NCBI RefSeq assembly: GCF_030542965.1
Contig: NZ_JAUAOA010000026.1
Location: forward strand, 1 to 45,359
Length of the DNA stretch: 45,359 bases
Direction: 5' to 3'
From: Azotosporobacter soli
Lineage (GTDB): Bacteria; Bacillota; Negativicutes; SG130
The position numbers were made by a program, and so were the translations under genes. Below are positions 22,945 through 25,538 of this stretch, in pieces. Numbering within the stretch: position 1 is the stretch's first letter; each line of letters opens with the position of its first letter. The notes under the pieces are model-generated. The model was not told the origin of the DNA. It made no database searches and was given only the letters and a program-made list of their open reading frames with translations.

Positions 22945-23901
22945 CTATTCCTGTCGCAATAATTGCCGGTTATGACTGTGTTGGAACGACAGTTCCATGA
23001 CGGCTGCGCGCACCGCTTCGAGTTTCGCCTCCGCTTGATGCACAGCTTCTTCACTTCTTTGCATCACCTGTCGAAAATGAAGCAGCAGTTTCAATCCCTC
23101 TTCCAGACCATAGAGATAAAACACTTTTTGAAATACCAGGTTCACGAGAAAATGTTCCTGCAAAATATCCGCCGTGAGAATTTCGCCTGGCATCATCGTT
23201 TCATTTTCATCCAGCCATTCATAGTTACCATAAATAGTTTCACGGATCATTTCGCCCATCGCTTTGTTTGTACCGTTCTTTCTGAGTCGGGCGATGCTTT
23301 CTTTTATGCGCAACAGGCGGCAATCCAAATCAACGCCGCGCACTTGCAGCAAATCAATGAAATGCTGCTCAAGTTCAAAATAATAATGCAGCGGATCGTT
23401 CTTCCCTTTTTGTTCCGGATACACATAGGCAACAATGCTGTCTTCGGCAATTTGCAGCGGCGCATGTTCCGAACGCAGCACCAAAAGCGGCTTCGCGCGG
23501 TTCAGGCGCTTTTGCACAGCCGGACAGTTAAATGTCAGCGTGAATTCCATGCCGCGCGTCGAACTGATCGGATAACGGGGAAAGGTTTGGCATACACTAT
23601 CTAAATGCTGATGCCCTATCTGTCGATGCAAACTGCAGCGATTATCCGCTTCGAGAAACCAACAGCCGCCTGTTTTTTTTTTAGCGATATAGGCATATTC
23701 GCCCGGACAGCGTTCGCCGCTGATTTTCTGAAAAGCCGCTGAAAATTCGTTTTGCGCATCGCGTTCTGCAAATAAGCGTTCGTTCCGAAGATAGCTGGCT
23801 TCATTGACAGTGACCAGCCAATCATTACGGCAGCATCGACCGCACATCTCACACTGAAAATCTTCTACAATATCCAAAAATATATACATGCGCCATTCCA
23901 T
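22945..23901 (-). CDS. YkgJ/FliB-like cysteine-cluster protein
   Basis: A 318-residue protein whose N-terminal third carries a CxxCxxCC-type cluster (FQCEMCGRCCRNDW). Further cysteines fall in GERCPGEY, GGCWFLEADNRCSLH and DSVCQTFPRYP. This is the layout of the YkgJ family, which may bind zinc or an iron-sulfur centre and includes the flagellin lysine methylase FliB. The remaining two-thirds is helical with no motif I know. No flagellar gene is near, so a FliB role is unsupported. The start is uncertain: 23901 has AGGA immediately before it, and the ATG at 23889 (MYIFLD) has the better spacing. It is first in a three-gene set. Confidence 0.72.
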   Translation of the reverse strand: MEWRMYIFLDIVEDFQCEMCGRCCRNDWLVTVNEASYLRNERLFAERDAQNEFSAAFQKISGERCPGEYAYIAKKKTGGCWFLEADNRCSLHRQIGHQHLDSVCQTFPRYPISSTRGMEFTLTFNCPAVQKRLNRAKPLLVLRSEHAPLQIAEDSIVAYVYPEQKGKNDPLHYYFELEQHFIDLLQVRGVDLDCRLLRIKESIARLRKNGTNKAMGEMIRETIYGNYEWLDENETMMPGEILTADILQEHFLVNLVFQKVFYLYGLEEGLKLLLHFRQVMQRSEEAVHQAEAKLEAVRAAVMELSFQHSHNRQLLRQE

Positions 23902-24084: not shown

Positions 24085-24113
24085 TTGACTTATCTCTTTT
24101 TTGGCGTTATCAT
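24085..24113 (+). promoter_or_regulatory. Probable promoter of the trp operon
   Basis: TTGACT (24085-24090) and TATCAT (24108-24113) are spaced 17 bases, putting the start near 24120, just before T-box stem I. The AT-rich stretch 23902-24084 before it shows no other gene or clear site. Confidence 0.6.
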
Positions 24114-24119
24114 TACATC

Positions 24120-24420
24120 CAACAGCATAACGAACCACAATAGCTTTGAGCGGGACGAGTACTTAGGCTTCTCTTTAGCCCAGCGAGTCGGCGACCGGGT
24201 AACCGGAGGTGAAATGGCCGACCTAACGATCCTCAGGAATGGCCCCGTGAGCTGCTCACCAAACGCATTTTGCCAGTAGGCTGAGCCGGTCGCCTCCGTT
24301 AGAGGGCTAGGGTATCGGATTTGTTATCCCGTACCTGAAGAGATGAAAGGCAGCGCTTTTCAACAAGGGTGGTAACGCGAACATTTCGCCCCTTTTCGGG
24401 AGGAATGTTTTTTTTATTCC
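24120..24420 (+). promoter_or_regulatory. T-box leader of the trp operon, Trp (UGG) specifier, with first switch module
   Basis: Stem I starts near 24143 (GAGCGGGACGAGTAC) and has an apical GTCGGC/GCCGAC stem. It returns through CAGGAA-TGG-CCCCGTGAGC, which places the specifier at 24240-24242 as UGG (Trp). Stem II/III-like segments follow to about 24345. The first antiterminator carries AAGGGTGGTAACGCG (24366-24379), with an AA where CC or AC is usual. It is followed by terminator 1 (about 24380-24410) and a run of eight or more U at 24407-24415. High uncharged tRNA-Trp should favour read-through. A second switch module follows immediately. Confidence 0.9.
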
Positions 24421-24500
24421 CCCACGCGCATTCTTTCAAACCAGGGTGGTACCGCGAAGACATTTCGCCCCTAGCAAGGGCGCGAAATGTCTTTTTTTAT
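24421..24500 (+). promoter_or_regulatory. Second T-box antiterminator/terminator module without its own stem I
   Basis: A second T-box sequence, AGGGTGGTACCGCG (24443-24456), has a 5' pairing arm CGCG about 15 bases upstream. A strong terminator follows: GACATTTCG/CGAAATGTC arms plus an inner CCCT/AGGG, then CTTTTTTTAT. Only about 30 bases separate it from terminator 1, too few for another stem I. The two modules share most of AGGGTGGTA-CGCGAA and CATTTCGCCCCT, which indicates tandem duplication of the switch part only. It ends just before the trpD ribosome site. Confidence 0.88.
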
Positions 24501-24518: not shown

Positions 24519-25538
24519 ATGTTGCGAGATTATCTGGAAACAATACTTGGCGGAGAAGACTTGTCGCGCCGCGAAGCGGAATACGCCATGGAAATGATCA
24601 TTACCGGCCGGGCGGCAGAAACGCAGGTCGCCGCTTTTTTAGCCGCTTTGCGCCTTAAAGGAGAAACGGCCGCAGAAATCACCGGCTTCGCCGAAACGAT
24701 GCGCCGCCATGCCACTACCCTGCCCTACTCCGGCACCGATCTGGTGGATACTTGCGGTACCGGCGGCGATAAAAAAGCGACGTTCAACGTCTCGACAACG
24801 ACGGCTTTCGTTCTGGCCGGCGGAAACGTCAGAGTCGCCAAGCACGGCAACCGCGGCGTCTCGAGTCCGTGCGGCAGCGCCGACGTACTTGCCGCACTAA
24901 ACGTCGCGATCGATCTGCCGCCTGAACAGGTCAGCCAGGCGATTCAAAGCATCGGCATCGGCTTTCTCTTTGCGCCTCGCTTTCATCCGGCCATGGGCAA
25001 TGTCGCCAAATTGCGCCGCGAACTGGGTACCCGTACCGTCTTTAATCTCTTAGGCCCACTAACAAATCCGGCCGGAGCGCCGCGCCAACTACTCGGCGTC
25101 TATGATCGCCGCCTTACCGTAAAACTGGCCCAAGTTCTTTTATCGCTCGGCGTCGAACACGCCTTGGTCATCCACAGCCACGACGGCATGGACGAAATCT
25201 CCAGTCGCTCGCCAAGCTATATCGTCGAGGTAAAAGCAGGGCAGATCATGGAATATGAAATTGATCCGCTCGATTACGGCTTCTCACCTGATGCCGCCGA
25301 ATATCAGGGCGGCAGCGCCGCCGAAAACGCAGCCTTGCTGGTTCGCATTCTCGAAGGGGAAGAAGGCCCATGTCGCGATATCGTGCTGCTGAACGCAGCG
25401 GCCGGTTTTATCGTCAGCGGTAAAGCACTTGATTTCTCCGAAGGCCTTCAGTTGGCGAAGCAAAGCATTGACAGCGGCGCAGCCTTAAGCAAGCTTCGCG
25501 ACTTGCAGGCCTTTAGCCGCAGCGGGTGCGCCTCATGA
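24519..25538 (+). CDS. trpD: Anthranilate phosphoribosyltransferase
   Basis: TrpD attaches phosphoribose from PRPP to anthranilate. The 339-residue protein has the PRPP-binding DTCGTGGDKKATFNVSTTTA, KHGNRGVSSPCGSADVLAALN, FLFAPRFHPAMGNVAKLRRELGTRTVFNLLGPLTNP (read here as separate motifs) and HGMDE-like SHDGMDEIS. Its start at 24519 follows AAAGGAGGAG; the frame runs upstream through the leader but that part is not coding. It is first in the operon, which is unusual because trpE normally leads. It overlaps trpF by four bases. Confidence 0.96.
   Translation: MLRDYLETILGGEDLSRREAEYAMEMIITGRAAETQVAAFLAALRLKGETAAEITGFAETMRRHATTLPYSGTDLVDTCGTGGDKKATFNVSTTTAFVLAGGNVRVAKHGNRGVSSPCGSADVLAALNVAIDLPPEQVSQAIQSIGIGFLFAPRFHPAMGNVAKLRRELGTRTVFNLLGPLTNPAGAPRQLLGVYDRRLTVKLAQVLLSLGVEHALVIHSHDGMDEISSRSPSYIVEVKAGQIMEYEIDPLDYGFSPDAAEYQGGSAAENAALLVRILEGEEGPCRDIVLLNAAAGFIVSGKALDFSEGLQLAKQSIDSGAALSKLRDLQAFSRSGCAS

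Follow-up and report, generated by a model that had tools for sequence, protein, structure and literature searches.

The leader of the tryptophan operon of Azotosporobacter soli carries one tRNA sensor followed by two complete terminator switches, and the sequence between the switches holds a second, covarying partner for the stem III that precedes the first. The available data are most readily explained by a partially tandem, transcription-terminating tRNA-Trp T-box in which a single anchored tRNA is probably tested twice, a strand exchange in stem III handing it on from the first switch to the second. The structural part of this picture is well supported by the anatomy of the leader, the conservation of both terminators and the covariation of the second helix, here called stem III'. 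From these we infer strand exchange in real time, re-use of one tRNA and a sharper control of the operon.

Anatomy of the leader

The leader lies on the plus strand of contig NZ_JAUAOA010000026.1, in a stretch of 45,359 nucleotides that was analysed as a whole and is referred to as the window. The Rfam T-box model RF00230 matches positions 24137-24396 (108.6 bits, E 3e-23, above the gathering score of 93 bits), which comprise stem I, the stem II region, stem III and antiterminator 1. A likely promoter, recognized by eye from its consensus elements, lies upstream at 24085-24113 (TTGACT 24085-24090, 17 nt, TATCAT 24108-24113). In the Rfam alignment, the stem I specifier UGG (24240-24242) directly follows GAA (GAA-UGG, 24237-24242), and its Trp identity agrees with the genes under control, a trp operon that includes trpS. 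According to NCBIfam, the order after the leader is trpD-F-C-B-A-E-G-trpS-aroF, with trpD at 24519-25538 and the last gene, a DAHP synthase, reaching to about 32832.

Stem III (24344-24362, -6.8 kcal/mol) consists of a 5' arm UGAAAGGC (24344-24351), the loop AGC and a 3' arm GCUUUUCA (24355-24362). Just 5' of it, the string AAGAG (24338-24342) is a candidate for the purine motif RRRxG (PMC7583486) and would be common to both switches. Two cores follow. Antiterminator 1 (24365-24394) presents the bulge UGGUAAC (24370-24376) within T-box 1, GGG-UGGUAAC-GCG (24367-24379), and antiterminator 2 (24443-24472) the bulge UGGUACC (24447-24453) within T-box 2, GGG-UGGUACC-GCG (24444-24456); each antiterminator folds at -8.3 kcal/mol. 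Terminator 1 (24379-24415) is a hairpin at 24379-24411 with a U-run at 24408-24415 (-13.8 kcal/mol, z -3.65), and terminator 2 (24456-24498) a hairpin at 24456-24494 with a U-run at 24492-24498 (-25.3 kcal/mol, z -7.16). At each core both folds are predicted and share strands, which makes antiterminator and terminator mutually exclusive. In one modelled state, GGGUGGUA, a strand of T-box 1, forms base pairs with UUAUUCCCCC immediately 3' of the terminator 1 U-run, within 24412-24425; conservation of this pairing in the other trp leaders is not obvious.

These results bear out an earlier note on this DNA, made from the sequence alone, which had proposed a single Trp sensor with two full switches: the Rfam match, the UGG specifier and the ability of both cores to fold both ways agree with it, and its T-box positions (24366-24379 and 24443-24456) are right to within 1 nt. 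The note had named the failure of the second element to form an antiterminator as what would speak against the arrangement, and this element is predicted to fold as stably as the first. The UGG starts of the two T-boxes (24370 and 24447) are 77 nt apart and the spacer between the cores measures only 65-67 nt, into which a further stem I would not fit, as the note had also judged. With one stem I and at least two antiterminator/terminator cores, the trpD leader is a partially tandem T-box; a second stem I before core 2 is absent from the window, and the leader is not a full tandem. That the linker might hide a short stem I, or a stem III local to core 2, was considered and ruled out by this gap and by the weak folding of the linkers, which averages -1.1 kcal/mol over 71 leaders.

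A second 3' arm for stem III

The discriminator that senses aminoacylation has the motif RRRxG-Stem III-AA and includes stem III as an integral part, and an antiterminator lacking stem III shows no appreciable tRNA binding (PMC7583486). Core 2 has no local stem III: linker folding in the window amounts to 0.0 kcal/mol. Instead, the 28-nt linker before core 2 carries a second 3' arm able to pair with both the loop and the 5' arm of the first stem III. In the window, this arm, GCGCAUUCUUUCA (24426-24438), pairs in register with 24344-24356 (UGAAAGG with UCUUUCA, GCGC with GCGC; duplex -14.4 kcal/mol) and is followed by AA (24439-24440) and then by the AGGGUGG of T-box 2. The second core could thereby obtain a stem III and AA with the first 5' arm as its partner, and T-box 2 can, as far as predicted folding goes, take over the place of T-box 1. 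The earlier note had credited each switch with its own 5' pairing arm, which is correct for the antiterminators and incorrect for stem III, of which the second switch has none of its own.

The complementarity is specific to each leader. When linkers were exchanged by permutation among 71 non-redundant leaders, both overall and within gene classes, the energy of linker-stem III pairing averaged -12.8 kcal/mol for the leader's own linker vs -7.9 for swapped ones. The own-linker total lies 15 SD below the permuted totals, and 11 SD below when swaps are confined to the same gene class, with p = 5e-5 both ways, the lowest value that the test can give. Leaders of SSS-family transporters, serC, trpD and unassigned genes are each significant, whereas serA alone is not (p = 0.15, n = 5), and a few leaders rank poorly with their own linker (L035, L226, L247, L266). 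An energy-free count gives the same result: the longest in-register helix reaches 7 bp or more in 39 of the 71 own pairs vs 20.6% of swapped ones (p = 2e-4). Single-core controls (n = 16) have no such complementarity (-7.8 vs -12.8 kcal/mol, p = 4e-6). In the alignment of the Trp set, stem III' has a covariation of 0.364, reached in 0 of 500 shuffles, with slid controls at or below 0.177; MAFFT shifts the 5' arm of the window's stem III by one column, so that the pair count in this alignment under-scores the window's row.

Stem III' is also the longer of the two helices (mean 13.0 vs 5.8 bp), is the more stable in 67 of 67 comparisons and appears in the unconstrained minimum free energy fold of 126 of 131 leaders, the window included. 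In the window the predicted gain is small, at -31.5 kcal/mol with stem III' vs -29.3 to -29.4 with stem III. On average it contacts 3.3 of the 5 bases of the stem III loop, and these loop bases by themselves covary with the linker (p = 1e-4), within gene classes too.

These properties bear on whether stem III' is a mere relic of the copied 3' half of the leader, free of any selected role, with each core happening to work or not. The linker arms do resemble the stem III 3' arm of their own leader slightly more than that of others (5.8 vs 4.8 of 12 positions, p = 2e-4), a likeness that is expected from duplication or from a common partner alike. Since the loop bases covary in their own right, stem III' is not just a copied arm; this covariation, together with a helix roughly double the length of stem III, leaves the relic reading disfavoured and very improbable.

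The placement of the helix speaks to a second question. Stem III' ends 4-6 nt before the GGG of T-box 2 in 51 of the 71 leaders, and an AA directly follows it in 61 of them, against a background of 24%, which matches RRRxG-Stem III-AA; an RRRxG near the start of the helix occurs in only 37 of 71 (background 18%). Stem III' encloses the terminator 1/antiterminator 1 region and forms after terminator 1, and could in principle be a separate hairpin for timing or against pausing, or a block on the refolding of terminator 1, rather than the completion of a second discriminator. Its register, which repeats the placement of stem III ahead of box 1, argues against this, and we hold such a role to be highly unlikely.

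Conservation of both switches

Both T-boxes are preserved across the 12 aligned members of the 13 recovered trpD leaders with the layout of the window. In these 12, terminator 1 has 96.8% of cells paired with compensatory changes (covariation reached in 2 of 500 shuffles) and terminator 2 has 96.5%, likewise with compensatory changes (0 of 500). The two boxes differ in sequence. Box 1 of the trp leaders usually deviates from the consensus, reading UGGUAAC or UGGUAUC, and all trpD leaders have UGGUACC as box 2; the ser leaders show a similar tendency, box 1 often departing from UGGNACC. Examples from both groups (L023, L029, L031, L018 and others) often have UGGNAAC or UGGNAUC in the first bulge and UGGNACC in the second. 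The SSS and ABC leaders have UGGUACC at both boxes, with a full-consensus box 1 in 28 of 28 non-redundant SSS-transporter leaders.

An off-consensus first box, combined with a first terminator weaker than the second in the window (-13.8 vs -25.3 kcal/mol), is what would be expected if core 1 were vestigial or a weak and leaky terminator and regulation were left to the second switch alone, acting through stem III'. Such a division of labour is improbable given that terminator 1 is maintained by compensatory changes over 12 leaders, that box 1 is intact throughout the SSS-transporter leaders and that the same genome has single-core T-boxes, too, with UGGUAAC and UGGUAUC (L013, L002). The box difference may possibly reflect a tuning of the first switch, a reading that stays suggestive only because the same variants occur in those single-core T-boxes.

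The tRNA offers little to separate the boxes. In 15 of 15 genomes checked, tRNA-Trp ends in GCCA with the discriminator base G73, and the UGGU of both boxes is complementary to it with a fourth pair, G-U, that is not Watson-Crick. A search for specificity in the match of UGGN to the discriminator base was consequently uninformative, with G73 throughout and U at both boxes.

A proposed model of serial testing

Antitermination at terminator 1 by an anchored uncharged tRNA would follow from established T-box mechanics. The leader has a single copy each of stem I, the stem II region, the purine string and the stem III 5' arm, and two copies of the module of stem III 3' arm, AA, antiterminator and terminator. 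In the proposed model, uncharged tRNA-Trp, held at stem I by its anticodon, would first stabilize antiterminator 1 together with the local stem III, and terminator 1 would be passed. Once the polymerase has moved beyond it, the second 3' arm would emerge, invade at the loop of stem III and pair with loop and 5' arm; as the longer of the two helices, stem III' would displace the first 3' arm and take the place of stem III. Terminator 1 would then be free to fold without consequence, and the shared half of the discriminator and the NCCA end of the anchored tRNA would move to T-box 2, now in the former position of T-box 1, where charging would be tested again before terminator 2. With two serial tests of one tRNA, leak-through would approximate the product of both read-through rates. 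A T-box complex with bound tRNA may resist such displacement.

The earlier note had left open whether one tRNA engages the switches in turn or whether the second switch works without contact to stem I. The first option fits the data better, judging from the covarying second 3' arm in the linker and the need for stem III in tRNA binding (PMC7583486). The other option amounts to two tRNAs: T-box 1 would keep the stem I-anchored one, and another uncharged tRNA, any with a fitting NCCA end, would bind T-box 2 without stem I. The two antiterminators do not overlap and could coexist, both boxes present UGGU, and the minimum free energy fold of the window retains antiterminator 1 inside stem III'. 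Nevertheless, an antiterminator without stem III binds no tRNA appreciably (PMC7583486), an unanchored tRNA would forfeit amino-acid specificity, and a second tRNA has no need of a covarying stem III'. As such, the involvement of two tRNAs is possible but unlikely. Passage of one tRNA from switch to switch also changes how the logic is best described: the note had likened the arrangement to an AND gate, and since both switches would read the same tRNA, double-gating or double-checking of one input is the better name.

Distribution and relatives

The layout is common in the class Negativicutes, in whose trp leaders the earlier note had suggested looking for double cores with one stem I. Two T-box cores 42-72 nt apart are present in 104 of the 380 class genomes, covering 47 of 102 genera, with zero matches to the reversed pattern used as a control in the same genomes. 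An assembly artefact or chance duplication was ruled out by this control and by the relatives that share the layout. In a sample of the phylum, double cores occur in only 10 of 398 genomes, six of which lie outside the class. The pattern used on the genome collection is loose and matched mostly G+C-rich repeats, so only filtered loci were used; among the matches listed after filtering are also Clostridium, Paenibacillus, Desulfosporosinus, Lutispora and some non-Bacillota MAGs.

Double-core leaders precede trp, ser and Phe/Tyr-type transporter genes. Specifically, the gene downstream of the 136 extracted leaders encodes an SSS-family transporter in 57, serC in 23, trpD in 13, serA in 10, an ABC binding protein in 9 and aroF in 5, and 19 have no assignment. 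Three antiterminator/terminator cores stand behind one stem I in two aroF leaders (L020 and L022, with a Phe-like specifier UUC by eye) and in one leader of Paenibacillus alvei (L074). In the aroF leaders, both linkers contain an AGCC arm that matches the same stem III 5' arm. In L024, L035 and other SSS/ABC leaders, terminator 1 seems to pair with T-box 1 itself (GGGUGGUACC with GGUGCCACCC, or UACCGC with GCGGUA), in contrast to the classical terminator 2; such pairing would hide box 1 after switch 1 is spent.

A pattern for the Trp-type stem I recovers 16 places in 15 genomes. Eleven of these are partially tandem, the window included, full tandems occur in two genomes (L176, L178/L179) and one place holds a single T-box (L177); a further one, L167, is a probable full tandem, judged by a terminator-like end just upstream. 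In relatives, trpD thus appears to be controlled by a full tandem with two stems I or by a single T-box, with partial and full tandems seeming to replace each other, and the class appears to build double gates ahead of trp by these two routes.

Relation to known systems

The trpD leader shares with canonical transcriptional T-boxes (RF00230, of the glyQS/tyrS type) a stem I with specifier, a stem III, UGGN, an antiterminator/terminator and downstream amino-acid genes, and differs from them in having two cores per stem I, the second without a local stem III. Contiguous T-boxes are most enriched in trp operons and have been described as complete units (PMC12452182). These full tandems, like L176 and L178, likewise place two serial terminators ahead of trp genes and respond to the same tRNA; they duplicate stem I and sense two tRNAs independently, whereas the trpD leader duplicates only the 3' module. 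Partially tandem T-boxes are a known kind, in line with the earlier note's remark that partly duplicated T-boxes had been noticed: they have been named, with their mode of action listed as an open question (PMC7583486), and share the layout as far as the single sentence of that review shows. Pseudo-cooperative tandem riboswitches, as classified in a review of tandem riboswitches (PMC9481103), similarly place several expression platforms for one ligand in series. There each platform has its own aptamer, whereas here one sensor serves two or three; a term search of the same review returned no T-box with one sensor and many platforms.

The layout itself has likely been noticed earlier, and Vitreschak 2008 and Gutierrez-Preciado 2009 may list partially duplicated leaders. 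A shared or exchanging stem III was not found in the T-box literature searched, which comprised sources other than these two, and the covarying stem III' is, as far as checked, a new feature.

The shared, covarying stem III suggests an answer to the question of how half-duplicated T-boxes work and offers a concrete and testable means of driving several terminators from one sensor. In addition, it provides comparative support for stem III as part of the sensing unit and presents a natural design in which RNA switches are stacked behind a single sensor to reduce leak. It is an evenly balanced question whether strand exchange in stem III serves generally to pass one tRNA-bound sensor along two or three switches during transcription, with charging checked repeatedly in the manner of kinetic proofreading and the loop of stem III acting as toehold.

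Other features of the window and genome

Upstream of the trp leader and divergent from it lies a gene for a FliB-like flagellin lysine-N-methylase (22945-23901, minus strand). The window holds a second T-box at 2400-2646 on the minus strand, an ordinary single-core element with a UUC (Phe) specifier (119.8 bits). In genome G000, three T-box copies with equal scores of 114 bits each lie near contig ends (C21:72919, C21:74025 and C24:462; L009-L011), and are possibly a repeat split by the assembly.
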